From the IMG/VR virus record IMGVR_UViG_3300029319_007473, positions 1 to 42,020 of that record: a stretch of DNA of 42,020 nt, one strand, 5' to 3'. Numbering within the stretch: position 1 is the first letter of the stretch; every line of letters begins with the position of its first letter. Position numbers and translations under genes: made by a program. The notes under the pieces are model-generated. The model was not told the DNA's origin. It saw only the letters and a list, made by a program, of their open reading frames with translations, and ran no database searches. Shown here in pieces: positions 413-39,369 of the stretch. Source of the DNA: a virus.

Positions 413-1225
413 TTATAGTGTTATGTTGTGAGCATGCTTCGCATAGTCAACAAAACCTTCAACTTTGCGAAGGAAGCTTGAGAGCTTCTGCTTATTCCAC
501 TTTTTCACAGCATAGTCTATGTCTTTGGGATACGCTTCGATCCATTCCTGTGGATAAACATAGTTGCTTTTACCTAGCACCTCAATCCTCTCAATCGAAG
601 ACCACCCATAGCCAGAGAACAAGTATTGCCTATCTGAATGATTGCTTGGTACAAAGTCCTTTGGGCGAATGGTTTGTAGATTTTCACCGGTCAAGGGTAT
701 CTGAACCTCTTGCCTCATGTCGTAATCGTCAGCCATAGCAAAAATGTTTAGGTTCTCTGGCATTTCGTTACCTACAAGGGAAATGAAACTGGCTACACCC
801 ATGTGTCTTTGAGAGTACCAAGACTCCATAGTGACCTTAATAAGCGAAGCCGGAGCGAAGCCATAGTCTACCGCTGACTTGGCCCAGAACTCTCGCCATA
901 TCTTGTTAGCGTCATGAAGCCTTTGCTTGACCGCCTTAAGCTCTCCGCAGTGCCTACGGTTGTGTCCCTCGCTCCCACAGAAGCCACATTTTCTAGCCTT
1001 TCGGGGGGTAGTACGGTTGGAGCGTCTTGTCGCTATCTCTTGGTTCTTATGCCACCTCTGTAGGGCATAGTTCTCCATATAGTTTAGCACCTGACCTAAA
1101 TCTGCTTTCTTTTGTGCTTTCGCACCATCGACAGAGATCTGTGGGCAGTGTTGGACTGAGTGTCCTTCTTTGTTACAATATCTACAAGATATTGTTCTTT
1201 TATATTTACTTGCGTTGATAGCCAT
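413..1225 (-). CDS. Protein with two CCHC zinc knuckles, 270 aa
   Basis: Two retroviral-nucleocapsid-type zinc knuckles (C-x2-C-x4-H-x4-C) are visible: C14, C17, H22, C27 and C80, C83, H88, C93, the second in the context CGFCGSEGHNRRHC. Between them lies a basic linker rich in Arg and Lys. The C-terminal two thirds (about 100-270) has no motif I recognise and ends in a lysine-rich helix. Such knuckles bind single-stranded nucleic acid or RNA in known families. Nucleic-acid binding here is inference. The start is supported by AGGAGG 7 nt upstream. The gene has its own promoter at 1258-1285, inside the end of the preceding gene. Confidence 0.85.
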   Translation of the reverse strand: MAINASKYKRTISCRYCNKEGHSVQHCPQISVDGAKAQKKADLGQVLNYMENYALQRWHKNQEIATRRSNRTTPRKARKCGFCGSEGHNRRHCGELKAVKQRLHDANKIWREFWAKSAVDYGFAPASLIKVTMESWYSQRHMGVASFISLVGNEMPENLNIFAMADDYDMRQEVQIPLTGENLQTIRPKDFVPSNHSDRQYLFSGYGWSSIERIEVLGKSNYVYPQEWIEAYPKDIDYAVKKWNKQKLSSFLRKVEGFVDYAKHAHNITL

Positions 1226-1257: not shown

Positions 1258-1285
1258 ATTATAACTTGTTTGTTTTATTTGTCTC
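1258..1285 (-). promoter_or_regulatory. Promoter of the zinc-knuckle gene
   Basis: GAGACA (1280-1285), 16-nt spacer and TATAAT (1258-1263). It lies inside the end of the last array gene. Confidence 0.65.
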
Positions 1286-1480
1286 GGTCATTTTTTGTCC
1301 GTATTCTTGCAGAAAGCCTAATGGAAGCCAACCGATAGCTTGGGCCTCACCTACTAACTGGAGGTGGCCAAGCCACCCATCCTCATCGTTCCACTCTATA
1401 CCTATGATCAGAAACATCCCTTCGATGCCAAAATGCTTGACCTCTACGAGATCTCCAATCTTCAAGTCGAGTTCGTACAT
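1259..1480 (-). CDS. GDLV-family mini-protein, last unit of the tandem array, 73 aa
   Basis: The ATG follows GGAGGCGGT. The family core DLKIGDLVEV is at residues 5-14, followed by GMFLIIGIEW and a WLGHLQLVG strand. It overlaps the upstream unit by 19 nt. The C-terminal tail TETNKTNKL is low-complexity because it encodes a promoter: its codons cover the -35 and the TAA stop lies in the TATAAT of the promoter for the zinc-knuckle gene. Confidence 0.85.
   Translation of the reverse strand: MYELDLKIGDLVEVKHFGIEGMFLIIGIEWNDEDGWLGHLQLVGEAQAIGWLPLGFLQEYGQKMTETNKTNKL
1286..1300. promoter_or_regulatory. GGACA-A5-TG(A)CC operator, copy 2
   Basis: The same dyad with one substitution (TGACC), again directly upstream of the -35. 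Confidence 0.65.
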
Positions 1481-1647
1481 ACCGCCTCCAAATCATATTC
1501 TTCTTCAAGTGTGTCCTTTAAAGGACAACACTCGCCTATCCAATGGACTCGCCAATAGCGAACTCCTATGTTGTAAGTACATTTCATTAGGATACCAAAG
1601 TGCTTTCCGTTGAGCCACTTTGATCTAACTAAATCACCCACTTTCAT
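1462..1647 (-). CDS. GDLV-family mini-protein, array unit, 61 aa
   Basis: It begins MKVGDLVRSKW and continues HFGILMKCTY and YWRVHWIGE, giving all three family blocks. The GAGGTG ribosome site lies within the last codons of the upstream unit, which it overlaps by 14 nt (ATGAAAGTGGGTGA). The C-terminus DLEAVCTNST is encoded across the start region of the next unit. Function unknown. Confidence 0.87.
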   Translation of the reverse strand: MKVGDLVRSKWLNGKHFGILMKCTYNIGVRYWRVHWIGECCPLKDTLEEEYDLEAVCTNST

Positions 1648-1801
1648 TTATCACCTCTACATTCCAACTCGACATGATACAAACATCACCATCATTCCAG
1701 TGAACCTCTATTTCATCATCGTCACCGACCTGCTCTGGATCTATACAGGTAACTATACCGATATATCCTTGATCGTGCCTTACTAAATCACCTACTTGCA
1801 T
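1634..1801 (-). CDS. GDLV-family mini-protein, array unit, 55 aa
   Basis: The translation begins MQVGDLVRHDQGYIGIVTCI, then has EIEVHWNDGD and ends WNVEVINESG. Residues EVINESG are encoded by the ribosome site and start of the next gene. The unit overlaps its upstream neighbour by exactly 10 nt. It is too short for most gene callers, but start, ribosome site and family pattern all agree. Confidence 0.88.
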   Translation of the reverse strand: MQVGDLVRHDQGYIGIVTCIDPEQVGDDDEIEVHWNDGDVCIMSSWNVEVINESG

Positions 1802-1962
1802 GATACCACCTTTAAATTACGCATACGCTCTTTGTATGTCCTGTTCTCATCATTCCATAACACATCAGCCCAATGACTGTCGTGGGGAAAGATGTGGATC
1901 GCTGTAACGATACCAATAGCCTTGCTGTCTCTTATGTGCATTACTAAGTCACCTACTTGCAT
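1792..1962 (-). CDS. GDLV-family mini-protein, array unit, 56 aa
   Basis: The translation starts MQVGDLVMHIRDSKAIGIVT, continues HWADVLWNDENRTY and ends NLKVVSCK. It overlaps both neighbours by 10 nt, and its last residues (VVSCK) are encoded by the GGTGGT ATC ATG start region of the next unit. The start has GGAGGTATT in front. Confidence 0.88.
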   Translation of the reverse strand: MQVGDLVMHIRDSKAIGIVTAIHIFPHDSHWADVLWNDENRTYKERMRNLKVVSCK

Positions 1963-2144
1963 AATACCTCCAAATCTTCTTCATCTTCTACTGTATATTG
2001 CATTGGTGGGTTAGAGTTTATCCATAGGATCTCCCAAGCCACCTCATAGATCAGATCTTCATCATCATAATATTCACCAACTAGTTGGTGAACGACACCA
2101 ATCGTATATCTCCACCTGTCCGTTACTAATGATCCTACTCGCAT
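1953..2144 (-). CDS. GDLV-family mini-protein, array unit, 63 aa
   Basis: I place the start at the ATG of MRVGSLVTDRW because GGAGGTAAT sits directly upstream and the family N-terminus begins here. A longer in-frame start at 2177 has no ribosome site and would run through the previous gene. The core is YTIGVVHQL and VAWEILWINS, and the end is EDLEVLCK. Both neighbours overlap by 10 nt. Confidence 0.87.
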   Translation of the reverse strand: MRVGSLVTDRWRYTIGVVHQLVGEYYDDEDLIYEVAWEILWINSNPPMQYTVEDEEDLEVLCK

Positions 2145-2281
2145 ATTACCTCCACTAGAAAAGGATATGTATTCCACTTGTGCCCATCTGTCATGATGAA
2201 GGTGAGCTTGTGCTCACCAACCCAGATTACGACTCCAATGCCATCATGGTCTTTATGCCTTACTAATGATCCTACTCGCAT
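2135..2281 (-). CDS. GDLV-family mini-protein, shortest array unit, 48 aa
   Basis: The protein reads MRVGSLVRHKDHDGIGVVIW, then KLTFIMTDGHKW and ends FLVEVICE. It is the shortest unit, with one strand-loop apparently trimmed relative to its neighbours. The overlaps on each side are again 10 nt. The start region is nearly identical in DNA to that of the unit beginning at 2144. Confidence 0.87.
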   Translation of the reverse strand: MRVGSLVRHKDHDGIGVVIWVGEHKLTFIMTDGHKWNTYPFLVEVICE

Positions 2282-2445
2282 ATTATCTCCATCTGGTTCT
2301 CTGTCCATTGGGTTGTGAAATCGTAGTCGATCTCAAGCCCATCAGACCATGTGATAAAGGTTCTGGCTTCTTCGATCTTTGTAACCACACCAAAGAAGAC
2401 TATATCTGGATACTCTGTCCATTTAACTAAGCTACCTACTCGCAT
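2272..2445 (-). CDS. GDLV-family mini-protein, array unit, 57 aa
   Basis: The start is at MRVGSLVKWTEY behind GGAGGTAAT. A longer in-frame start at 2502 lacks a ribosome site and covers the upstream gene. The body has VFFGVVTKI and RTFITWSDG, and the C-terminus QMEIICE is encoded by the ribosome site and start of the next unit. Both overlaps are 10 nt. Confidence 0.87.
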   Translation of the reverse strand: MRVGSLVKWTEYPDIVFFGVVTKIEEARTFITWSDGLEIDYDFTTQWTENQMEIICE

Positions 2446-2606
2446 ATTACCTCCAGTTGATCTCTGCGGTATATTGCCCCACCGAAATCGCAGTTGATCC
2501 AACGAACGGTCACTCGACCAAAGACCTTGTCTACAACCACACCTATTCTATTTAGCTCATCCACATATATCTCTGTGTTGAGCCTTACTAAACTGCCTAC
2601 TCGCAT
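2436..2606 (-). CDS. GDLV-family mini-protein, array unit, 56 aa
   Basis: It begins MRVGSLVRLNTEIYVDELNR, then IGVVVDKVFGRVTVRWINCD, and ends DQLEVICE. It is a close paralogue of the neighbouring units with 10-nt overlaps on each side. The ribosome site is GGAGTTAAT, one base off the GGAGGTAAT found elsewhere in the array. Confidence 0.87.
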   Translation of the reverse strand: MRVGSLVRLNTEIYVDELNRIGVVVDKVFGRVTVRWINCDFGGAIYRRDQLEVICE

Positions 2607-2764
2607 ATTAACTCCAACTTGTGTTTAACCCTACCTATAGAGTATTCATTCTCATCACCGTCAGCCCATGTGACAGCTATGCACCATTCATCTATATATG
2701 TGATCAGGCCCAAATACTCTTGACCGTTGTCTTCTATCCATTTAATAATGCTGCCTACCTGCAT
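2597..2764 (-). CDS. GDLV-family mini-protein, array unit, 55 aa
   Basis: It begins MQVGSIIKWIEDNGQEYLGL, continues CIAVTWADGDENEYSIG and ends HKLELICE. The start lies in the last codons of the first array gene (10-nt overlap). Unlike the others, only a weak purine stretch precedes the ATG, so it probably depends on translational coupling. Confidence 0.85.
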   Translation of the reverse strand: MQVGSIIKWIEDNGQEYLGLITYIDEWCIAVTWADGDENEYSIGRVKHKLELICE

Positions 2765-2955
2765 ACTTTAACCCACTTGCCATGCTGGATCATTTCACTG
2801 GCTGTTTCGTAGTCTATATCTATTGTTAGATCGCACTTGGCGAGCCGACAGCCAAGCTGTTCTTTCTCATCGTCCTTGTGCATTATTAAAATATGGTTCC
2901 CGTTTATGGCCACATGAATGAGATCCCCAACACATATATCTTTTATTCTAAGCAT
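2755..2955 (-). CDS. First gene of the tandem array, diverged GDLV-family protein, 66 aa
   Basis: The start is supported by AGGAGG about 6 nt upstream. The protein has VGDLIHVAINGN near its N-terminus, a diverged family core, then ITIDIDYETASEMIQ and ends HGKWVKVCR. Its tail again encodes the next start by a 10-nt overlap. As the promoter-proximal unit, it follows the dyad-marked promoter at 2986-3013. Confidence 0.85.
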   Translation of the reverse strand: MLRIKDICVGDLIHVAINGNHILIMHKDDEKEQLGCRLAKCDLTIDIDYETASEMIQHGKWVKVCR

Positions 2956-2974: not shown

Positions 2975-3003
2975 TTGACAAATATAACATAACCGGTTAT
3001 GAT
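2975..3003 (+). promoter_or_regulatory. Possible plus-strand promoter opposite the array head
   Basis: TTGACA (2975-2980), 17-nt spacer and TATGAT (2998-3003), with ATAACCGGTTAT palindrome at 2989-3000. It would make an antisense RNA to the gene at 3010-3231. Confidence 0.4.
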
Positions 3004-3013
3004 AAATAATCAA
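2986..3013 (-). promoter_or_regulatory. Promoter of the tandem array
   Basis: TTGATT (3008-3013), 16-nt spacer and TATGTT (2986-2991), with the dyad copy 3 at its 5' edge and a palindrome in the spacer. Confidence 0.55.
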
Positions 3014-3231
3014 GGACATTTTTTGTCCGCTTTTTTCAATCGAACTCGGTGAACAACCGTTTTCGTATTGTGTCTCAGCCACAGGATCTCAAAGAGATCA
3101 TGACCTAGTGCTTGGTTTACTACACCAAGCTGAAAGGCAACTCGCTGAGACTCGACTCCTTCGACTGGTGTGAAGAACACCATCTGAACAAGGTCGCCAA
3201 CTCTAAAAGAGGTATTATGTTTCAAACTCAT
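3010..3231 (-). CDS. GDLV-family mini-protein, 73 aa
   Basis: I choose the ATG of MSLKHNTSFRVGDLVQM because GGAG lies 5 nt upstream. An upstream in-frame ATG at 3255 has none. The core is RVGDLVQMVFF, FQLGVVNQAL and LFEILWLRHN. The last residues ADKKCP are encoded by the GGACA-A5-TGTCC dyad of the next promoter. The N-terminal leader LKHNTS resembles the thrice-repeated leader in the next gene upstream. Confidence 0.85.
   Translation of the reverse strand: MSLKHNTSFRVGDLVQMVFFTPVEGVESQRVAFQLGVVNQALGHDLFEILWLRHNTKTVVHRVRLKKADKKCP
3014..3028. promoter_or_regulatory. GGACA-A5-TGTCC operator, copy 3
   Basis: Perfect copy, abutting the -35 of the array promoter and overlapping the C-terminal codons of the upstream gene. 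Confidence 0.7.
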
Positions 3232-3299: not shown

Positions 3300-3305
3300 G
3301 CAAAC

Positions 3306-3746
3306 TCACAAATCGTCACTCTCATGTGCGTGTTCCTTATTTATAGGGATCAAAACCTTCTCATCTATGAAAAGGGTTAACGATGGTTGGTCAATCCAGT
3401 TGACTTTGAAAGCTTTGTACTCTGGGTGTTTCTCAACAACAAGGCCCAAGCCGAGCGGATGCTCGCTGTGTGTTACAAGGTCGCCAAGTTTGGGTTGTAT
3501 TGAACTGTTAAGTTTAAGCTTCATTTTTTCAACACCTTCTATTGAACTGTTAAGTTTAAGCTTCATTTTTTTCACCTCGTTGATTGAACTGTTAAGTTTA
3601 AGCTTCATTTTTTTGTAATCGGGGTGCGTTTCGCTTGGCAAGACTATCCACTGCTGCTTCTTGTCTCCCTTCGCATCCCAACCATCGACAAAGAATATTC
3701 TATTCACTATACCAGCAATTTTTTGTTGTCGTTTGTTTATTTTCAT
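3306..3746 (-). CDS. GDLV-family protein with three 14-residue tandem repeats, 146 aa
   Basis: The N-terminal 45 residues resemble the second half of a GDLV unit (IAGIVNRIFF ... WIVLPSETHP). Then come three copies of KMKLKLNSSI at a 14-residue period, then a complete unit (PKLGDLVTHSEHPLGLGLVV ... VNWIDQ). The repeats are almost perfectly conserved at DNA level (31 nt every 42 nt). Each repeat contains an ATG, so internal starts, such as the one at 3524, may produce a shorter protein. No ribosome site precedes the first ATG, which lies about 12 nt from the predicted transcription start. The gene could be a fusion of two units. Confidence 0.75.
   Translation of the reverse strand: MKINKRQQKIAGIVNRIFFVDGWDAKGDKKQQWIVLPSETHPDYKKMKLKLNSSINEVKKMKLKLNSSIEGVEKMKLKLNSSIQPKLGDLVTHSEHPLGLGLVVEKHPEYKAFKVNWIDQPSLTLFIDEKVLIPINKEHAHESDDL
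3499..3613. repeat. Three 31-nt direct repeats at 42-nt period
   Basis: ATTGAACTGTTAAGTTTAAG and the following bases recur at 3499, 3541 and 3583. In-frame they encode KMKLKLNSSI-type repeats of the gene at 3306-3746. The AT-rich units look like iterons as well as coding repeats. Confidence 0.85.
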
Positions 3747-3794: not shown

Positions 3795-4121
3795 CTAAAA
3801 ACGATTATAAATATACTTTTTCCAATAATTGTTTTTTGAGGCCCAAGCGTCGATTTCATCGTATGTGATGTGCAAACGGAGCGCATCCAAATACATTTCA
3901 AAGTAATCCACTAATATTAATTTTTTTTCCATCTTTTCACGAAGAGGCTCAGTCTCAATATTGTTACCAAAGTAGCACTTCATGTTTAGATACTCCGACC
4001 ATAGTTCCATAACTTGGTCGTCGAGCCATAAAAAATAAACTATCTTATCACTTTTCGATTTAGGAAGAGGGATAAGTCTTAGCTCTGCTTCATATTCAGC
4101 GGAGAATTCCTTCACCCTCAT
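3795..4121 (-). CDS. hypothetical protein, 108 aa
   Basis: The gene overlaps its upstream neighbour by 4 nt (ATGA), suggesting translational coupling. The protein is rich in aromatic residues, charged and largely alpha-helical by eye, with no domain I recognise. Its TAG stop is followed directly by the CTTGACA of the next promoter. Confidence 0.75.
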   Translation of the reverse strand: MRVKEFSAEYEAELRLIPLPKSKSDKIVYFLWLDDQVMELWSEYLNMKCYFGNNIETEPLREKMEKKLILVDYFEMYLDALRLHITYDEIDAWASKNNYWKKYIYNRF

Positions 4122-4393
4122 TGGCCGACCCCCCCAGTAGTAGGGTAGGAGGGGGGTAGTAGGGTAGTAGTACCGGAGGAGGATATAATTTTTATTTTGT
4201 CATCCTCAACAAGTCTAGCAAATGCTTTGACACCTATGATCGTTGTGATCCCATCAAAATAATGTATCTCATAGTTGTCTCTCCAACTTAAAATGTCATT
4301 GTCAAAGTTCATTTTTCCCATTCTTATGACACGAGTAATGACACCAATCTTACCATTGTCCTCAATCAGAGTCCCGACTTTTAGAATCTTCAT
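4118..4393 (-). CDS. GDLV-like small protein with low-complexity tail, 91 aa
   Basis: It begins MKILKVGTLIEDNGKIGVIT and has YEIHYFDGIT, the family pattern with T for D in the GDLV core. The last 20 residues are Thr/Pro/Gly-rich and come from a repetitive tract (CTACTACCC repeats, 4138-4172) with no counterpart in the relatives. The ATG overlaps the protease gene by 32 nt, with GAGGG directly before it. The tail may be a recent slippage product. Confidence 0.75.
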   Translation of the reverse strand: MKILKVGTLIEDNGKIGVITRVIRMGKMNFDNDILSWRDNYEIHYFDGITTIIGVKAFARLVEDDKIKIISSSGTTTLLPPSYPTTGGVGQ

Positions 4394-5081
4394 CCCTCAA
4401 AATCCCCAAAATGTCTTTTCTTTCTAAATCATAAACTCTATGGACAACAACGATGGTTTCAATAAACTCAGGCCCACCATGAAATGGATTTAACTCCATC
4501 GTTATTGCATGAACAATACCAACTGCCCTTCCAGATTGGTCAAAAACTACAGAGCCACTGGCTCCGAACCATGCGTTTGACTGCATTATGATTCTCGAAT
4601 AATCAGTACTGCTGACAAAGCCTTTGATTAAAAGTCCATCATGATCACTTGGGTAGCCATGAAAATAAAGACTTTTGCCATCTAGATCTTTGTTCTTGTT
4701 GTTGACATAGCTAGACGGTTTCGTTTGTTTTAAAGAATTTAAGGGAACTAAGATAGCAACATCGCTGTGCAAGTTTGCCCACACAACTTTGGCGGGAACC
4801 ATGTTGCCACCTTGCTCAGTTACAACGACCCTTTGGTGTCCCTCAATCACATGCGATGCTGTGATGATAAAGCTTCTGCTGCCTATTCTAAATAGGTTAC
4901 CAGATCCATGTCCGATTCTGTATCCGTCACCATAAATATCTACTCTTACCGATGAATCTATTGCCCTATTTATACCTGTGTTATAACTGTTAGAGACTTT
5001 CGCTACTTCTAGCTCTTTGGTTGTCTTGTCCTCATAATAAAAAACTTGACAAGCAAATAAAATTAAATAAAACCATACCAC
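4362..5081 (-). CDS. Trypsin-like serine protease, probable lipoprotein
   Basis: The S1-type catalytic triad is recognisable: His in FIITASHVIEG, Asp in HSDVAILVP and Ser in WFGASGSVVFD, followed by GRAVGIVHA. This is the fold of HtrA-like and other bacterial trypsin-family proteases. No PDZ domain follows, and the length of 239 aa fits a lone protease domain. The N-terminus MVWFYLILFAC is a very short hydrophobic segment ending in Cys, so the protein may be a lipoprotein outside the inner membrane. The start is GTG with AGGAGG 8 nt upstream. It diverges from the plus-strand amidohydrolase. A role in host-envelope remodelling or superinfection control is possible but unproven. Confidence 0.85.
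   Translation of the reverse strand: MVWFYLILFACQVFYYEDKTTKELEVAKVSNSYNTGINRAIDSSVRVDIYGDGYRIGHGSGNLFRIGSRSFIITASHVIEGHQRVVVTEQGGNMVPAKVVWANLHSDVAILVPLNSLKQTKPSSYVNNKNKDLDGKSLYFHGYPSDHDGLLIKGFVSSTDYSRIIMQSNAWFGASGSVVFDQSGRAVGIVHAITMELNPFHGGPEFIETIVVVHRVYDLERKDILGILRDEDSKSRDSD
5046..5073 (+). promoter_or_regulatory. Candidate promoter for the plus-strand amidohydrolase
   Basis: TTGACA (5046-5051), a 16-nt spacer and TAAAAC (5068-5073) lie inside the start of the divergent protease gene. It would place the structured element at 5099-5156 in the leader of the amidohydrolase. Confidence 0.45.
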
Positions 5082-7779: not shown

Positions 7780-9348
7780 TTAATGCTTAACTATGGCGTG
7801 ATTTGTAGTGATCAAAGTTGAAGCAACTGATACAGCGTTTTGAATCGCAGAAATTGTAACCTTAACCGGATCTATAACACCACAAGAAAAAAGATCTTCT
7901 GTGTTCCTAGTCATAAAGTTATAGCCATGACCGTCAGCCGATGAGGAAACATGTTGGTAAATTATATCAGACGATTCACCTGCGTTCAAACACATCTGGT
8001 TTAGTGGTGCTCTGCATGATTGAAACACAATATTGATTCCAAGCTGTTGCTCACCGTTACCTACCAGAAGCTTTGAGTCACTCATCTTAGCCAATACTGA
8101 ACCACCGCCGGCAATCATTCCCATCTCCTGACCGGAACGAACAGCCTCTAGTGCGTCTTCAACACGGTGCTTCTTTTCAATCATCTCGATTTGAGATGCC
8201 GCACCAACTCGTATGACAGCCACGCCAGATGCAAGCCTAGTAATCCGCTCTTGTAAGCGTTCACACTCTTTGAGAGAATCCGTTTGGCTAATCTCTGTCT
8301 TGATCGCTTCGATTCTTTTGTCGATTTCATCATGATCTGCTTTGCCTCCAACTATTGTTGTCCATCCTTTGTTTATAGATATCGATTTAGACTGTCCAAA
8401 GTGCCCTAATTGTACATCTTTTAGTTGCAAACCATCTTCCCTAGTCAATAGGGTTGCTCCGGTTGACAAGCACAAATCTTTTAGTATATTGCGACGTTCT
8501 TCACCATATCTGGGTGCTTTTACCGCTGCTATCTTCATAGTTCCACGAACACAATTCATTATGAGGGCAGCGAGAGCTTGTCCTTCGACCTCGGAGGCCA
8601 CAATAAGTAATGGTCGGGACTCTCTCGCTGCTAACTCTAATGTTGGATAAATCTGCTCGACAGTCTCAACCTTTTGATCTGTGACCAAGATCAAAGGCTC
8701 ATCGTACTCCACACAACCTGTTCTTTCATTTGTTATGAAAGCGGTAGCAGCATAGCCAGAGTCAAATCTGAAACCCTCAATAAGGTCTAAAGAGGTCTTC
8801 ATTGATCTTGCTTCCTCAATCAAAACAGATCCATCTTTACCTGCTGAGTCTACCGCTGTGGCTACTAGATTTCCAATCGTTTCATCATTATTCGCAGAAA
8901 TGGTTGCGATATGCATGATGTCTTCTTTAGAGCGAATAGGTGTTGCTTGTTCTTTGAGCTTATCAACGATAAACTCACAGGCTACATCCATCCCTCTCTT
9001 GAGTTCAATAGGAGACACGCCAGTCGCAATGTACTTTTGTGCTCCTTTGATCATCGCTCGTGCCAGAACAGTTGTTGTAGTCGTTCCATCACCAGCGGTG
9101 TTTGCGGATTGTTCTGCTGCTTGCTTGACGATCTGTGCTCCGACGTTTTGGATTGGGTCGTCAAGCTCAATAAACTTTGCTATTGTTACTCCGTCTTTTG
9201 TAACAACCGGAAGGTTCTCTTCTCTGTGGTAGAGGATGACGTTTCTTCCTTTTGGTCCGAGGGTTGACCCGACATTGTCGGCGAGTATATCAACTCCTTC
9301 GATTATCTTTTGGCTTAGCTCGTAGCCATTCACGTAGTGTTTGCTCAT
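7780..9348 (-). CDS. groEL: GroEL-type chaperonin, 522 aa
   Basis: This is a full-length group I chaperonin: TLGPKGRNV at 29-37, KDGVTIA at 51-57, the ATP-binding GDGTTT at 86-91 and the late GVIDPVKV block carrying the catalytic-type Asp. It is slightly shorter than cellular GroEL (about 548) and ends NHAIVKH, with no GGM tail. I place the start at MSKHYVNGYE because GGAGG precedes it. A GTG at 9369 is in frame but lies almost on the predicted transcription start. A GroES-like gene exists 22 kb away at 31805-32095. It probably folds phage proteins such as capsid or polymerase subunits, as inferred for other phage chaperonins. Confidence 0.95.
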   Translation of the reverse strand: MSKHYVNGYELSQKIIEGVDILADNVGSTLGPKGRNVILYHREENLPVVTKDGVTIAKFIELDDPIQNVGAQIVKQAAEQSANTAGDGTTTTTVLARAMIKGAQKYIATGVSPIELKRGMDVACEFIVDKLKEQATPIRSKEDIMHIATISANNDETIGNLVATAVDSAGKDGSVLIEEARSMKTSLDLIEGFRFDSGYAATAFITNERTGCVEYDEPLILVTDQKVETVEQIYPTLELAARESRPLLIVASEVEGQALAALIMNCVRGTMKIAAVKAPRYGEERRNILKDLCLSTGATLLTREDGLQLKDVQLGHFGQSKSISINKGWTTIVGGKADHDEIDKRIEAIKTEISQTDSLKECERLQERITRLASGVAVIRVGAASQIEMIEKKHRVEDALEAVRSGQEMGMIAGGGSVLAKMSDSKLLVGNGEQQLGINIVFQSCRAPLNQMCLNAGESSDIIYQHVSSSADGHGYNFMTRNTEDLFSCGVIDPVKVTISAIQNAVSVASTLITTNHAIVKH

Positions 9349-9377
9349 TTGGCCTCCATGGTTTAACACTTATTTAT

Positions 9378-11448: not shown

Positions 11449-12319
11449 TCTTTATTTCCTCAATAAGTTGTGCTATGTCCAGTCCAGCACAATCGATCTT
11501 AGTCTTCTTAAGATGATAATGAGAGATAAATCCCCTATAAGTGCCTCTGGTTGCTGTACTATAAGTAGTTGTTGAATCAGGTGTTTTCAAAGGAATTTCG
11601 GCTGCTTTATGCACGGCTTGCATAAGTGCCTTTAGTGCTTCAAGCTGAACGGGATAAAAACCCAAGAAAGGTTTAAGGGTTGAGCCATGAACCTTAGCGT
11701 TGTCCCAGATAGGTCTTTCACCAAATCCATTCTTGACATACCATGCTTGATGCTTTGGGTAGTAAGCGTTTGCGATCTCCACACCAACAGACGCTGCGTT
11801 CCACTTGGATGATCCTGCATGGTATCCGATGTGGTTCATGTCCAGTGGTTGGTAAATGGTTCCGTCGTTGTCTATGAGAAAGTGAACCGACAGTCCACGG
11901 TTCTGCAAGACTCGAAAGGTGGACTTGGAGTTGAGACAAACGTCCCAATGACATACGAAATTATTGATGGGTCTCTTTTCGATCACCCTCTTGTATCCTT
12001 TCGTAAGCTTCATTCCTCCTTGCATAAACGGAAGAACGACCTTTGGCCAATCAATGTCAAAGTAGTCGTTGTTGTAGATGATGCTGGTGTTCTTGTGCTC
12101 TGGTACGTTCTCCTGAAGATATTCAAGTGATGCTTCTCGGTCAGTCCAGATCAGCCTGTAAGTACCTGGTCCACAAAGACCGTCGGCTTTCACACCGGCT
12201 CTTTTTTGATATGCTTTGATTGCCTTCGTCAGTTCCTCGTCAAATTCAGAACATCCGAACCAATCGGGTGTCCATCCAAGTTTTGCTGCGGAGGCTTCAT
12301 TGTAAAATTCTGCGTCCAT
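11441..12319 (-). CDS. Endolysin: peptidoglycan-binding domain plus N-acetylmuramoyl-L-alanine amidase
   Basis: An N-terminal PG_binding_1-like domain (about 15-65, with IKAYQKRAGVKADGLCGPGT) precedes an Amidase_2 / T7-lysozyme-like domain (about 110-285). Zinc-ligand candidates are His in NNFVCHWDV and the later GFISHYHLKKTKIDCAG, with NAASVGVEIAN between. This enzyme cleaves the bond between N-acetylmuramic acid and L-alanine of host peptidoglycan. It has no signal peptide, so a holin would release it. Its stop-start junction with clpP is TAATG. Confidence 0.9.
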   Translation of the reverse strand: MDAEFYNEASAAKLGWTPDWFGCSEFDEELTKAIKAYQKRAGVKADGLCGPGTYRLIWTDREASLEYLQENVPEHKNTSIIYNNDYFDIDWPKVVLPFMQGGMKLTKGYKRVIEKRPINNFVCHWDVCLNSKSTFRVLQNRGLSVHFLIDNDGTIYQPLDMNHIGYHAGSSKWNAASVGVEIANAYYPKHQAWYVKNGFGERPIWDNAKVHGSTLKPFLGFYPVQLEALKALMQAVHKAAEIPLKTPDSTTTYSTATRGTYRGFISHYHLKKTKIDCAGLDIAQLIEEIKNG

Positions 12320-12993
12320 TATATTACCTCATCTGCTAAACCGTATTCAACAGCTTCCTCCGCTGTTAGGTATACGTTAACCTTTTGATCCAAAATCTTT
12401 CTGATCTGTCGTTTAGTCATGTTGGTTTCATTAGCCAAAGCTGAAACATACATCTCTTGCAAGTGTTGGATCTCTTCAAGCTCATTCTCAAGGTTGTGAA
12501 TAGTTCCCAAGTTTCCTGCGGATACCGAGTGAATCATCACACGACAGTTCTTAAAAATCTTTCGCTTACCTTTGGTTCCCGATGCGAGAAGCAAAGTTCC
12601 TGCTGACATGATCTTGCCCATACCAATGGTTTCGATATCGCAGTCTTGCTTTACAAATCTCATAACATCGTGAACGGAGAACATGTCGTCCGCTGATCCT
12701 CCGTAAGTTGATATGTAAAACTTGATCGAATTGTCAGCGTCCTCTTCTTCTTTGCGATGTCCATGAAGCATCAACAAACCAGCGACCATATCACCGGCTC
12801 GTTCTTCATTGACGTCTCCGTACAACATCATGGTTCGTAAGTCCTTGCCGTCAGCACCACCGCCCAGCATTTCTAGCATTTGAACTGCTGCTGCGTCTGG
12901 TGTGTCCTCTTGGGCCTCTTCTTGGGCCTCTTCTTGGGCCTCCTTAATAGGCACGGGCTTTGCCTTTTTCTTCTTATCTAATACTGTAAACAT
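12319..12993 (-). CDS. clpP: ClpP-type serine protease with Asn at the catalytic Asp position
   Basis: Ser130 (GKIMSAGT), His155 (RVMIHSVSAG) and YLTAEEAVEYGLADEVI fit ClpP. Alignment by eye puts Asn206 (KVNVYLTA) where cellular ClpP has the triad Asp (RDRFLSA). A similar Asn is known in Listeria ClpP1, which depends on its partner for activity. An N-terminal extension of about 45 residues is Ala/Glu-rich and includes three QEEA-type repeats from a 12-bp DNA repeat. It may act as a prohead-type protease, mix with host ClpP, or pair with the ClpS encoded at 20559. Confidence 0.93.
   Translation of the reverse strand: MFTVLDKKKKAKPVPIKEAQEEAQEEAQEDTPDAAAVQMLEMLGGGADGKDLRTMMLYGDVNEERAGDMVAGLLMLHGHRKEEEDADNSIKFYISTYGGSADDMFSVHDVMRFVKQDCDIETIGMGKIMSAGTLLLASGTKGKRKIFKNCRVMIHSVSAGNLGTIHNLENELEEIQHLQEMYVSALANETNMTKRQIRKILDQKVNVYLTAEEAVEYGLADEVI
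12907..12942. repeat. Three 12-bp direct repeats within clpP
   Basis: TGGGCCTC recurs at 12911, 12923 and 12935, with the intervening bases repeated. The repeats encode the QEEAQEEAQE stretch in the ClpP N-terminal extension, a likely slippage site. Confidence 0.8.
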
Positions 12994-14453: not shown

Positions 14454-14870
14454 TTAATTAGTTCCGGTAGAGCCAAAACCACCAGAGCCACGTTCGGAAT
14501 CAGACAATTGATTAACCTCAACATATTCTATCTGTGGATAGGGCAAGATCATAATTTGACCAACCCTATCTCCGGCTAAATAACTACCTGCTTCACCGCT
14601 GAACTTCAGCATGATAGGTCCTCTGTAACCAGAGTCAATTACACCCACAGAATTTCTGAGTGTAAGTCCGGTTTTTGATACTGATGATCTTGGAAACACA
14701 AGACCAACATAACCTTCAGGTATCTCCATAGCGATTTGTGTGTCATACACTTGATTGCCATACTTATCAATAGTGTGGCTTACAGCGTACAAGTCCATAC
14801 AAGCATCGCCTGATTTTGCATACCTAGGAACTTTAGCATCGGGGCTAAGCTTCTTTATTTTGACTTTCAT
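14454..14870 (-). CDS. dut: dUTPase (deoxyuridine triphosphatase)
   Basis: All five trimeric dUTPase motifs are present: SGDACMDLYA, FPRSSVSKTG, NSVGVIDSGYRGP, GDRVGQIMI and GSGGFGSTG. The 138-aa length is typical. The enzyme converts dUTP to dUMP and pyrophosphate, keeping uracil out of DNA and supplying ThyX with substrate. The ATG follows GGAGGTAATAA, which is also the coding sequence for the C-terminus of the GDLV gene upstream. Confidence 0.96.
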   Translation of the reverse strand: MKVKIKKLSPDAKVPRYAKSGDACMDLYAVSHTIDKYGNQVYDTQIAMEIPEGYVGLVFPRSSVSKTGLTLRNSVGVIDSGYRGPIMLKFSGEAGSYLAGDRVGQIMILPYPQIEYVEVNQLSDSERGSGGFGSTGTN

Positions 14871-15039
14871 TTATTACCTCCAAATGTGATTCGTGCATTA
14901 TGTTGTATCTACCTAGCATCAGAAACTGCACGTGGTTTCCATGCTTTAATGGTATAATCGCTGTGATGATACCAATGTTGTTTTCAAGGGCAAAGCCCTT
15001 GGGGTATCCGACAACCCGAACTAAATCACCCACCTTCAT
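14845..15039 (-). CDS. GDLV-family mini-protein coupled to dUTPase, 64 aa
   Basis: It begins MKVGDLVRVVGYPKG and has NIGIITAIIPL, then ends HLEVINESQNKEA. It overlaps the upstream stop by 14 nt (ATGAAGGTGGGTGA), almost the same junction as in the array at 1634-1647. Residues LEVINES are encoded by the dut ribosome site and start. It looks like the same cassette dropped in front of an unrelated gene. Confidence 0.85.
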   Translation of the reverse strand: MKVGDLVRVVGYPKGFALENNIGIITAIIPLKHGNHVQFLMLGRYNIMHESHLEVINESQNKEA

Positions 15040-15289
15040 TTTGTTCTGATTCATCCGTCGTTTCTTCTTTTGGATTAAGCGCTTTCAATACTAGATCGAA
15101 CTTTATAAAACTTGATCTGAGCGTGTTCATAGAGGTTTCCATCTCTTCTTTTGATAAATCACCATAATCCTCAGATTGATAGCGATCTACATATGAATTA
15201 AAAACTTCTGATATTGAATAGCTTGCTACGGCTAAATCTTTTTTTGTAAGAACAATTGGTTGTTCTTCGTTTTCATTTGTTGCTTCCAT
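15026..15289 (-). CDS. hypothetical protein, 87 aa
   Basis: This small acidic, mostly helical protein contains ASYSISEVFNSYVDRYQ and ends TTDESEQNEGG. It is not recognised. The ATG has AGGAG upstream. Its end carries the start of the GDLV gene. Confidence 0.75.
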   Translation of the reverse strand: MEATNENEEQPIVLTKKDLAVASYSISEVFNSYVDRYQSEDYGDLSKEEMETSMNTLRSSFIKFDLVLKALNPKEETTDESEQNEGG

Positions 15290-20087: not shown

Positions 20088-20562
20088 TCTTCCACTCCTT
20101 TTTCATTTTTAAATATGTTTTATCTGTTCTCGCCTCAACCCACGCTGCTTTAAATATCTTGGCTGACTTGGCTTTGTCACAAGTCATTGCATCTGGTTCT
20201 TGTGGGAGAACTTCCCAGCTTCCGGAGTCTTTTGTCCACTTGCGACCACTACGGTGATTAGCATAGCGTCGGGAACGTGTAAAGCCCATGTGCAGAAACT
20301 TCTTTGCCATATCAGCACCAACAAAATCACCTTCGTTAAGGTAATCATAGAACATAGCCAAGATGGTTTGTGATGACTGTTGAGCAAGCTCAGGAGTTTT
20401 AAATCGCCAATGCTGGCATATCTCGGACTTGTAAGGCTCGCAAGTCAAAACTCCTTGTTGCCCTCTGCCGACATGATAAAGGTGTGGATTCTTTCGATAG
20501 TCCACACCCGCTTTCCATTTGTATGACTTCTCATCAAAGTCAACATAACTTGGTTGTTTCAT
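20077..20562 (-). CDS. DUF4385 family protein, 161 aa
   Basis: The protein contains the DUF4385 signature: LYHVGRGQQGVLTCEPYKSE, HWRFKTPELAQQSSQ, then GDFVGADMAKKFLHMGFTRS and RRYANHRSG. I start it at MKQPSYVDFDEKSY, which has GGAGGAAGA in front and overlaps clpS by 4 nt. The family is found in phages and large viruses, and its activity is unknown to me. Confidence 0.88.
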   Translation of the reverse strand: MKQPSYVDFDEKSYKWKAGVDYRKNPHLYHVGRGQQGVLTCEPYKSEICQHWRFKTPELAQQSSQTILAMFYDYLNEGDFVGADMAKKFLHMGFTRSRRYANHRSGRKWTKDSGSWEVLPQEPDAMTCDKAKSAKIFKAAWVEARTDKTYLKMKKEWKNED

Positions 20563-20885
20563 TCTTCCTCCATCGTCACTAACAAAGGGTGACTTAGCTT
20601 TCTTGCCCAATCCATTGCTTGAATTACTTTCATTTCTGCTACCTCTCTGGAGTATACTCCTGCTATCCCCTTGCCCGTATTGTGAACAGAGTCTGTCAAG
20701 TATCTAGCTTCCACTTCTGACTTGTAAAACACCTCTCGCAATATCATTACGACATCTGGTGCGTATGTATAATCATCATTCCAGATGATAACTTTGTATT
20801 TGCTGGGTGGTACGACCTTTTCTCGGTCCATCGTTCCGACTCCGGCTCCTACGCCATGTTTCTTATCTTTTTTTCTTTGTGTCAT
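20559..20885 (-). CDS. clpS: ClpS-type adaptor protein
   Basis: The ClpS core is unmistakable: PPSKYKVIIWNDDYTYAPD, then SVHNTGKGIAGVYSREVAEMK and HPLLVTMEEE. Cellular ClpS binds N-degron substrates and delivers them to ClpAP. The N-terminal extension is about 25 residues. The ATG overlaps the GIY-YIG gene stop (TAATG). Together with phage ClpP it could redirect host proteolysis, which is inference. Confidence 0.93.
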   Translation of the reverse strand: MTQRKKDKKHGVGAGVGTMDREKVVPPSKYKVIIWNDDYTYAPDVVMILREVFYKSEVEARYLTDSVHNTGKGIAGVYSREVAEMKVIQAMDWARKLSHPLLVTMEEE

Positions 20886-21470: not shown

Positions 21471-22364
21471 TTACCTCCTAAACAGGGCTTGGCGACCCCA
21501 ATCGTATGTTTTTTGTAGGTCCTTATCAGTAAGTCCACAAAAATACTTTGTATTCATGATTTCTACTGATAGGTCTGTGTTGGACATAAGAGTATTGTCT
21601 GCACAGATGGAAACCGGTATATCTTGTTTTATCCATTCTTTGATAGGATGATCACCAAAGTTATCTATAACGCTTGTATGTACATTGGACGTTATACAAG
21701 CCTCTAGAACCACGTTCTTTTCTCTGACAAGATCTACGACTTTTTGGTCTTCGAGTATCGTTGTTCCATGTCCGATCCTTTGAGCATGAAGAAAGTTGAT
21801 TGCAACCTCAATCTCTTTTGGAGATCTACCTTCGGCTGCATGGACTGTACGTCCTATACCGTGCTTCCTAGCCAACTCAAATGGCTCAATGTAATCAAAC
21901 ATGCTCCACTTGTGGGTAGGCAAAGGCCCACCGGCTAAATCAATACCAACAACCCTTGGCCTTGTTTTTGCGACATCAACGAGGGTACTGAGTATCTCCG
22001 GTGGTTCTCCATACAATCCGCAGAGAATAAGGTTCGCATTAGAGTCCAACCCATCAATCGCTGCATCAACTATTCTATCTATAGATGCACCGCAATGCAA
22101 CTGGGGTGCAAACCTTATTTCTAGACTATGCACTCCTGTTAACTCAGCGTCTTGACATATTTCACGAGCAACTCTCGTTACCGCTTTTGGTTGTTGTAGA
22201 ACCGACAGCGTCAGTTGAAATTTTTTCAGGGCTGTTTCTAAGCTCATACCCTTATGGAAGCCAACTTCTCTCGGTATCGGTATGGGTTTACCCTGACGGA
22301 CTGCTAATTTCTGTAGAGTGTTGAAGCGCAGAGATCCATCTAAATGACAATGTAATTCAATCAT
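21471..22364 (-). CDS. add: Adenosine deaminase-like amidohydrolase, 297 aa
   Basis: The adenosine deaminase family layout is present: ELHCHLDGS at 3-11 (metal ligands H5 and H7), HAAEGRSPKEI with the catalytic Glu-type segment, then RIGHGTTILE and SICADNTLMSN. The metal-binding Asp is kept in ADN. The second Asp of the usual TDD, which contacts the purine, is Asn here, so the substrate may differ (adenosine, deoxyadenosine, N6-modified forms). The ribosome site AGGAGG precedes the ATG. It could feed purine salvage toward IMP for the PurA-like enzyme. Confidence 0.88.
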   Translation of the reverse strand: MIELHCHLDGSLRFNTLQKLAVRQGKPIPIPREVGFHKGMSLETALKKFQLTLSVLQQPKAVTRVAREICQDAELTGVHSLEIRFAPQLHCGASIDRIVDAAIDGLDSNANLILCGLYGEPPEILSTLVDVAKTRPRVVGIDLAGGPLPTHKWSMFDYIEPFELARKHGIGRTVHAAEGRSPKEIEVAINFLHAQRIGHGTTILEDQKVVDLVREKNVVLEACITSNVHTSVIDNFGDHPIKEWIKQDIPVSICADNTLMSNTDLSVEIMNTKYFCGLTDKDLQKTYDWGRQALFRR

Positions 22365-23724: not shown

Positions 23725-24009
23725 CTAATTCTCCAATTTAATAATCATACTTTCATCTAGAAATTCATAACCTGTGTTATCAATCCATTCAACCTTATAT
23801 TCTGTTACATAGTTTACTGAGTATGCAGGGTGAAAGGACTCTTGAACAAAAAATTTAATACCTGTTACTAAACCAATTTTGCCAAACCCTATCCAGTTGT
23901 ATGATTTATAGTCTGAATATATGTGCTCTTGCACTAAGTCTCCAATTTTATATTTGGCGTTTACTCCGTCCGGTCTTTTATCAATTTCTACGTATCTGAA
24001 TTCTTTCAT
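23725..24009 (-). CDS. GDLV-family small protein, 94 aa
   Basis: After a 19-residue lead the core KYKIGDLVQEHI appears, then FGKIGLVTGIKFF and TEYKVEWIDNTG, the full family pattern. The ATG directly abuts the stop of the zinc-ribbon gene. It is longer than the array units because of insertions between strands. Confidence 0.8.
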   Translation of the reverse strand: MKEFRYVEIDKRPDGVNAKYKIGDLVQEHIYSDYKSYNWIGFGKIGLVTGIKFFVQESFHPAYSVNYVTEYKVEWIDNTGYEFLDESMIIKLEN

Positions 24010-37588: not shown

Positions 37589-37616
37589 ATTATAACACGT
37601 TGATGTGCTTTGTCAA
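37589..37616 (-). promoter_or_regulatory. Sigma70-type promoter of uvsE-exonuclease
   Basis: TTGACA (37611-37616), 16-nt spacer and TATAAT (37589-37594). The purA TGA stop lies within the -35. Confidence 0.85.
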
Positions 37617-38611
37617 ATTATTTCTGGGTGTTTTGAGAAAATAATTTCATTTACGTGGTTATCTGATGTTTTTAAAAAACACGCAATGTATTGTCTAAAT
37701 AATTTGTAGTTTTCAAAGCTCTTAAGCGCACCATCGTGAAATAGTTTATAAGTTCCAGTGCCTATAAGTATGTCTACCTTATTTACTATGATGTCAGTTG
37801 CACCGCTGATATTTATTGCCTTTATTAGTAAATCTAAGTTTAGCCAGTTAACCTTTCTTCGTCTCCCAGTGGTTACTCCATATTCCTGTCCTTTGTCTGC
37901 TATCTTTAGTAATTCAGGATCATTTAGCAGTTCATCGGGAAACATGGGGTCAACACCCGACCTAGTATCATAAGCCTTACAAGTTCCGTAAATACGCCTT
38001 ATTTTCTGTGGTGGGAAGCCAAGAGAACACGCACCATATGGCAACGTTGTCGATGATGTAACATATGGATAGTTTCCTTGGTCAACATCCAGATAGAAAC
38101 CCTGTGCGCCTTCACACAATACCTTGCCATAAAGTTTTTCATCCCACATCATCCAATATGGCAACACATCTTTGGCAAGAGTTCCTTTACGAGCCATTTT
38201 ATCAGCATAACAAGGTGCTATACCCTTAGATGTTGTCCCAAGCTTGTCAGCAAGTCTTTCTATATCTTCATCTATGTGAAGCCTACTCACAATGTGTGCT
38301 CTTGGTGAAACCCTTACTTTTGATATATCAAAGCCATTTTTCTCTAAGTATCTAAGCTCTGCTGTTAGGGAATTCTCATGAACAACACAACCTGGTCCTA
38401 TAACTGATGTAACTCCGTGAAATACACCACTTGGTATCAGGTGGGTTTTATATTTCTTACCATCGACAAAGACCGTATGACCTGCATTGTTACCACCAGC
38501 CCATCGGCATACAAAGTCATATTCACCTTGTTTTACAAGGGCTGAGGTGACTTTGCCTTTTCCAGTATCTCCCCAAGAAAGATCTGCTACTATATCTGCG
38601 TACTCAATCAT
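37613..38611 (-). CDS. purA: Adenylosuccinate synthetase-like enzyme, PurA with PurZ-like feature, 332 aa
   Basis: The N-terminal nucleotide loop reads SWGDTGKGK (12-20). The catalytic Asp15 of PurA is kept, but the usual following Glu is Thr, the residue found in the phage PurZ motif GSTGKG. NAGHTVFVDGKKYKTHLIPS, LCEGAQGFYLDVDQGNYPYV and TTGRRRKVNWL are PurA-like. NKVD keeps the guanine-binding signature, so GTP is expected as donor. The length of 332 aa is that of archaeal PurA/PurZ-type enzymes, not bacterial PurA (about 430). I start it at MIEYADIVAD with AGGAGG before it. It overlaps the DNA methyltransferase by 4 nt. Confidence 0.9.
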   Translation of the reverse strand: MIEYADIVADLSWGDTGKGKVTSALVKQGEYDFVCRWAGGNNAGHTVFVDGKKYKTHLIPSGVFHGVTSVIGPGCVVHENSLTAELRYLEKNGFDISKVRVSPRAHIVSRLHIDEDIERLADKLGTTSKGIAPCYADKMARKGTLAKDVLPYWMMWDEKLYGKVLCEGAQGFYLDVDQGNYPYVTSSTTLPYGACSLGFPPQKIRRIYGTCKAYDTRSGVDPMFPDELLNDPELLKIADKGQEYGVTTGRRRKVNWLNLDLLIKAINISGATDIIVNKVDILIGTGTYKLFHDGALKSFENYKLFRQYIACFLKTSDNHVNEIIFSKHPEII

Positions 38612-39369
38612 TGTTCCTCCTTTTGTTTGATTGCTTTTTCTATGTTCTTGCAACATAGATCAAAATATTCAGGATCTCGTTCTATCCCTATAAATCTTCT
38701 GTTGTGCTTTACAGCAACAACAGCAGTGGTGCCAGACCCCATATAAGGGTCTAATATAAGATCTTCTTCTTCAGTAGTTGGCAGAATACAATTCTCCACT
38801 AGCTTCTCTGGGAATGTACAGACATGGCCTTCATTTCTACTTGGTGGAAATCGCCAAATATTAGTTAGTTTTAAATCTTTATTGTCCCATTTTTTAGGCT
38901 TTTGAATTTGATATATTCTTTCCTCTTGGATATGATATCTCCTACTTGGATTTCCGATCCCACATCGATCCCAAATAATCTCACACCAGATTGGAAATTT
39001 GTGCAACCAATGCATTGGATGATGAAGATTGCTATTTGTCCTGTAGATGTTTCTATTGTGCCAAGCGAAGCGAACCTTGTGGTTATAAAATATAGAACTC
39101 CTACAAACCCTTATTAGTTCGAACATCATAGCTTGTTGTTGTCCTTGATATTGCCACTCAGGAAGATCATCTGAATACCATTTCTCGTACTTTTCCGTCA
39201 TAGATGTTGATGTTTTTGAGTGCTTGTAGTCTGAGTATCTTTTACACAAATTGTACGGTGGGGATGTAACAGCAACCTCGACAGAATTTCTGTCGAGGCT
39301 TGGAAGAACTTCTAAGCAGTCACCCAAATACATTGTACCGTATTTAAAGTCTTTCTTAGTAAAGCTCAT
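38608..39369 (-). CDS. DNA methyltransferase with TSPPY motif (probable N4-cytosine), 253 aa
   Basis: Motif IV TSPPYN at 35-40 and the SAM-binding LILDPYMGSGTTAVVAV near residue 213, followed by RFIGIERDPEYFDLC, identify a beta-group methyltransferase. SPPY is typical of m4C enzymes, though some m6A enzymes share this order. It overlaps the upstream nuclease by 4 nt (ATGA), indicating a two-gene unit. AAGGAG precedes the ATG. Confidence 0.92.
   Translation of the reverse strand: MSFTKKDFKYGTMYLGDCLEVLPSLDRNSVEVAVTSPPYNLCKRYSDYKHSKTSTSMTEKYEKWYSDDLPEWQYQGQQQAMMFELIRVCRSSIFYNHKVRFAWHNRNIYRTNSNLHHPMHWLHKFPIWCEIIWDRCGIGNPSRRYHIQEERIYQIQKPKKWDNKDLKLTNIWRFPPSRNEGHVCTFPEKLVENCILPTTEEEDLILDPYMGSGTTAVVAVKHNRRFIGIERDPEYFDLCCKNIEKAIKQKEEQ

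Follow-up and report, generated by a model that had tools for sequence, protein, structure and literature searches.

Within the window, the 42,020-nucleotide stretch of viral DNA that was analysed as a whole (positions 1–42,020 of IMG/VR virus record IMGVR_UViG_3300029319_007473), the ORF list contains ten head-to-tail ORFs of 48–73 codons on the minus strand, running from 2955 to 1259. The first seven consecutive junctions (start/stop 2764/2755, 2606/2597, 2445/2436, 2281/2272, 2144/2135, 1962/1953 and 1801/1792) all have an overlap of exactly 10 nt, and these coordinates agree with the gene count and overlaps given in the preliminary description. The last two junctions overlap by 14 nt (1647/1634) and then 19 nt (1480/1462). 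The genes had been called nested, which is wrong, since they overlap head to tail; the junction string that they were said to share is indeed present, as exact GGAGGTAATATGCGAGTAG at two junctions (2445 and 2144) and as close variants at the others.

The first gene of the operon, ORF 1 (2755–2955, 66 aa), carries the start of ORF 2 embedded in its last codons (TATGCAGGTAG). Units 2 (2597–2764, 55 aa), 3 (2436–2606, 56 aa), 4 (2272–2445, 57 aa), 5 (2135–2281, 48 aa), 6 (1953–2144, 63 aa), 7 (1792–1962, 56 aa) and 8 (1634–1801, 55 aa) each overlap the preceding gene by 10 nt, with units 4 and 6 having the exact GGAGGTAATATGCGAGTAG junction. Unit 9 (1462–1647, 61 aa) has a 14-nt overlap (ATGAAAGTGGGTGA), the class that is commonest among relatives, and the array ends with unit 10 (1259–1480, 73 aa), which has a longer N-terminus and the 19-nt overlap.

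A family profile built only from other contigs, with the window sequences excluded, recovers nine of the ten array ORFs, with E-values from 8e-24 to 0.0018 (3e-6 for unit 2 and 0.0018 for unit 10). The earlier reading of ten paralogues therefore stands for these nine and fails for ORF 1, which the profile does not recognise (E=5.3). ORF 1 is not a proven member of the family on its sequence, despite having the same junction as the array units and a VGDLI motif. The profile also finds relatives elsewhere on the minus strand of the window: a member truncated by the window edge (1–140, E=7e-11), a longer member with three tandem KMKLKLNSSI repeats ahead of its GDLV domain (3306–3746, E=3e-5), a weaker member (4118–4393, E=0.0013), a lone member (14845–15054, E=8e-12) and another outside the array (23725–24009, E=1e-5). 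Each KMKLKLNSSI repeat is in frame and has its own ATG; the repeats are perhaps duplicated start segments. The LEVINES codons of the lone member at 14845–15054 are also the ribosome site and start of a dUTPase-like gene (14454–14870, minus strand), and this joint-like arrangement indicates that a non-family gene is able to follow a unit.

Searches of Pfam, NCBIfam and PHROG gave no named family, all window units falling below the curated cut-offs. The best PHROG, 1690, is of unknown function and matches 9 of 70 members (E 2e-5); the same number of members searched against the PADLOC anti-phage defence models gave one weak hit only, and an Rfam scan of the window found nothing. The units have no common theme in charge, with pI values from 4.2 to 10.0.

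Ahead of the array, at 2980–3029 on the minus strand, a hairpin, CGGACAAAAAATGTCC, is followed directly by a sigma70-like promoter, TTGATT-16-TATGTT, and this element is likely to be the promoter of the array. An imperfect second copy (GAGACA-16-TATAAT; 1258–1301, minus strand) lies within the end of unit 10, before a zinc-knuckle gene. Copies of the element are found on the minus strand of the window at 3300, 3029, 1301 (the imperfect one) and 411, and the hairpin core thus occurs four times where 0.12 would be expected. The repeated form is CGGACAAAAAATGTCC-TTGA(C/T)-16/17-TATATT, and it is also present in the array-bearing loci L005/L149, L042, L063, L141, L145, L147 and L150. These elements appear to split the region into transcription units, which the joints split in turn into genes. 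Read-through of the element can end proteins in -DKKCP.

Substitutions in the units fall at codon positions 1, 2 and 3 in numbers of 474, 348 and 1167, and the median dN/dS is 0.16 (94 independent pairs), from which we conclude that the units are real, selected proteins; that they are translated is what the dN/dS would imply. AlphaFold models of two window units, 8 and 3, are five-stranded SH3-like barrels (pLDDT 93.5 and 91.1, respectively), in support of the earlier guess of a small β-barrel. Their nearest solved folds by Foldseek are the KOW domains of Spt5, NusG and eS4 and the Tudor domains of PHF1 and PcrA/UvrD, with query-normalised TM-scores of about 0.65–0.83; no match in this search of solved folds falls under an E-value of 0.001. 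The array units are alike in fold to these KOW and Tudor barrels, to which their profile similarity is weak, and differ from them in being free-standing proteins of 48–73 aa encoded in arrays. Among viral models the closest is A0A516MBH7, with 67% identity. In the models the joint lies directly after strand 5 and directly before strand 1, so that exchange at this point would respect the domain.

Family genes were called on at least 127 contigs, mostly from T4-type phages (uncultured marine relatives of T4), and number at least about 1,600. The IMG/VR loci listed, together with the window, gave 1,401 distinct units, which were called by their start motif, so that a few calls are expected to be false and members lacking the motif are missed. 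Most loci were retrieved with the joint pattern, and the matches listed for its 14-nt form are a lower bound. All 17 of the large array-bearing contigs tested encode a gp23-type major capsid protein (the window is a fragment with no capsid gene), and all 18 records tested encode a RecA-family protein. The T4-type array-bearing contigs are 185–293 kb in length and have 10 to 31 units apiece by profile. The window, a 42-kb virus record, encodes a DnaE-type polymerase, a DnaB-type helicase, a RecA-type recombinase, ClpP, ClpS, adenosine deaminase and adenylosuccinate synthetase; its polymerase shares 63–74% identity with the polymerases of ten further contigs that bear arrays. Arrays are present too on contigs binned into marine MAGs. 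One locus from a bacterial genome scan, L158, had no units. One record titled as a candidate division WOR-3 chromosome (L159, CP070664.1) contains a joint and several units and is a provirus or a mis-binned phage. Cultured phages gave only short partial hits and no convincing match at either the protein or the joint-DNA level, and our literature search found no description of such arrays.

The overlaps between neighbouring units fall into few classes. In the listed loci, 584 of 814 adjacent joints overlap by 14 nt, 99 by 4 nt and 65 by 10 nt, proportions that are not population frequencies because most loci were fetched by the joint pattern. The 10-nt class that prevails in the window is thus a minority among these relatives. 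Together the three classes account for 748 of the 814 joints, a pattern that is not expected by chance; neither is it made by the retrieval, since the same three classes (71, 8 and 19 joints of 14, 4 and 10 nt) recur in loci that were fetched on protein similarity alone.

The origin of these classes can be traced to the conserved start, M(K/Q/R)VGD, which as spelled places a stop in one or both of the other frames within 14 nt. Where AAR comes after the ATG, one frame ends at once in ATGA (4 nt); ATG-CRA-GTA-G (ATGCRAGTAG) gives a stop at 10 nt in the frame that ATGA closes; and GTC-GGT-GA (ATGMAAGTCGGTGA) closes the remaining frame at 14 nt. All three overlap classes stem from this one start device. 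Both other frames are closed by 813 of 1,051 family starts, and neither by only 11. Even units that lead an array close both in 252 of 346 cases, and their Gly codon is GGT in 275 of 344 (80%), compared with 31% in unit cores, a spelling that exceeds what the protein needs. The ribosome site is likewise embedded in coding sequence, as the last β-strand of the preceding protein, where LEV is spelled TTGGAGGTN (ttGGAGGTn); it is separated from the start by 6–7 nt at joints of 14 nt and by 4–5 nt at those of 10 nt. No RNA structure was found at the one window joint that was folded (-2.7 kcal/mol, z 0.1), and structure-guided exchange at the joint was rejected on this result. It may be chiefly the fold that keeps LEV and VGD conserved, in which case part of the overlap could be exaptation and not selection for exchange.

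The C-terminal tails of the units follow the same logic. Among 580 units of the listed loci that end in [EA][SGN]R-stop, a start codon is present at -14 in 576, being that of a called unit in 533 and an ATG or GTG in 43; the other four have a displaced start, and the next VGD domain still follows. The SR-stop tail is spelled AGTCGGTGA in 416 of 521 cases, although six codons are available for Ser and six for Arg. An identical unit ends REVK-stop before a 4-nt joint (L046) and RIVNESR-stop before a 14-nt joint (L094), and the tail of window unit 8, VINESG-stop, is VICK-stop in its 80% orthologue (L004). We conclude that tails such as -ESR-stop and -CK-stop are, as their spelling indicates, by-products of the next gene's start and not a matter of protein function.

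Comparisons of unit number and order in relatives show that copy number and slot content vary at the joints. Two contigs with 100% identity along stretches of 8.4 and 2.6 kb (L024 and L026) differ by one 176-nt unit, the difference between L078 and L082 is one 175-nt unit, and in L108 and L130 different units occupy one slot. Many net differences between near-identical contigs are not multiples of 3 and leave the frames intact, because each unit brings its own start and closes the preceding unit. Of the 135 homology breakpoints among relatives at 93% identity or above, 120 fall no more than 30 nt from a unit start, where 27% would be expected (binomial p 3e-51); stretches of homology open at -20 to 0 and close at +10 to +30. 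The prediction that units could be added or removed at the junctions with no harm to the frames is thus borne out, and the modular-cassette reading is supported at the level of these genome sequences.

Neighbour relationships decay with falling identity. Orthologous units keep their neighbours in 170 of 186 cases at 99–100% identity, 12 of 81 at 90–99%, 23 of 189 at 75–90% and 14 of 468 at 50–75%; the other genes of those loci, taken as a control, keep theirs in 54 of 54, 6 of 9, 43 of 82 and 637 of 1303 cases, respectively. Orthologues of unit 8 in L004 (80%) and L005 (75%), for example, have different neighbours.

We consider it very probable that the array is an operon of interchangeable SH3-like barrel genes that are traded at joints built from their own starts. 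The unit start, in its M(K/Q/R)VGDLV spelling, would be a universal acceptor, in which the other two frames are usually stopped at once, so that an upstream gene arriving in either of them would be closed within 14 nt, while the last strand of the incoming gene, LEV, would supply the next ribosome site. Homologous exchange inside the 20–40-nt joint could then add, remove or swap a whole domain gene of any length, at a fold boundary and with every frame kept. Translation is probably coupled along the operon, and a RecA/UvsX-type or annealing recombinase probably performs the exchange.

An alternative is that the array arose by tandem duplication and divergence, the overlaps being inherited relics with no later exchange. 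This would account for the origin of an array with one family, one joint and one strand. Paralogues within a contig are, however, highly diverged, with only 34 same-contig pairs giving a BLAST match; close relatives of single units stand next to other genes when they occur in other contigs; and indels of one unit and swaps within a slot separate contigs that are otherwise near-identical. Simple tandem duplication is already largely refuted by this shuffling of neighbours, and we regard it as improbable.

Less probable still is ordinary compact packing, in which the overlaps would serve translational coupling only and the apparent shuffling would come from short repeats that were assembled chimerically. 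Phage genes commonly have short overlaps, the nin genes of lambda being ATGA-linked (PMC8022706), and the joints do have 20–40 nt in common; all loci are metagenomic assemblies, and chimeric assembly at repeats of this length could mimic some swaps. Against this, the agreement of neighbours at 99–100% identity (170/186) disfavours widespread chimerism, and the 166 of 189 cases in which neighbours differ at 75–90% identity place the exchange long before assembly. The 14- and 10-nt overlaps also outnumber the usual 4. A programmed-frameshift polyprotein, in which a change of frame at each joint would yield several barrels in one fused chain, has in its favour the ribosome-site-like sequence just ahead of the stop, which known frameshift sites also have, and is ruled out, to near certainty, by the opposite shifts that the 14-nt class and the 4- and 10-nt classes would need, by the well-spaced ATG or GTG of its own at every joint (6–7 or 4–5 nt) and by the unstructured RNA of the one joint folded.

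The exchangeable units of the array invite comparison with other modular systems. In phage lambda, the ninR region was termed a 'chain of interlinked genes' (Kroger and Hobom 1982, as described in PMC8022706), which consists of small non-essential genes, chained by overlapping stops and starts, that are mosaic among relatives. The overlap of stop and start in consecutive small genes is common to the present arrays (748/814 joints). The nin genes differ in that they have ATGA joints and belong to different families, whereas here 4-nt joints make up only 99 of 814 and a single family motif and profile runs through the units; the joint in these arrays, where 14- and 10-nt overlaps dominate, also carries a ribosome site, a start and stops for the other frames. 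Integron cassettes are similar in being a pool of promoterless single-gene units that are gained, lost and reordered, but in the arrays the acceptor is coding sequence, and no attC-like structured site is present at the one window joint folded. Promoter early stem-loop (PeSL) cassettes of T4-like phages have reportedly been described by Arbiol in 2010 and Comeau in 2014. The window resembles them in having a hairpin and then a promoter, once in front of the array and three times elsewhere. Small-gene shuffling in T4-type phages is a further likeness, and PeSLs sit between transcription units whereas the unit joints lie inside coding sequence (a comparison based in part on PMC4503421). A stem-loop with a promoter is absent from the overlapping unit joints and present at the operon borders.

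More tentatively, and with somewhat less than even confidence, we suggest that the start as acceptor constitutes a general format for trading genes with no dedicated recombinase, in which one-domain genes are swapped from a shared pool and the SH3-like barrels form a fast-evolving arsenal against host defences or machinery. Apart from this proposal, the joints provide a concrete sequence rule by which phages can reshuffle single genes with frames unbroken, account for the conserved tails as a trace left by the start of the following gene and not as protein function, and allow the modular evolution of phages to be tested nucleotide by nucleotide. They also mark a very large group of small proteins from marine phages as exchangeable members of one fold, probably modules of host interaction. 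That the units serve as a set of binding modules in host takeover or counter-defence, directed at host or rival targets early in infection, is a more doubtful proposal, consistent with their fold, the divergence of paralogues, the constraint on orthologues and the rapid turnover.

Several other genes of the window were also recorded. A protein with two CCHC zinc knuckles adjoins the array (413–1225, minus strand); it has no Pfam match, and 10 of 13 contigs that bear arrays encode a homologue, which in L005 lies near units. The same 42-kb stretch encodes a trypsin-like protease (4362–5081), a GroEL-like protein assigned by eye (7780–9369), ClpP (12319–12993) and ClpS (20559–20885). Adenosine deaminase (21471–22364) and adenylosuccinate synthetase (37613–38656) are both on the minus strand in this one region, and the synthetase keeps the aspartate of WGDxGKGK, which would suggest that it is PurA-like rather than the PurZ of modified-base phages.
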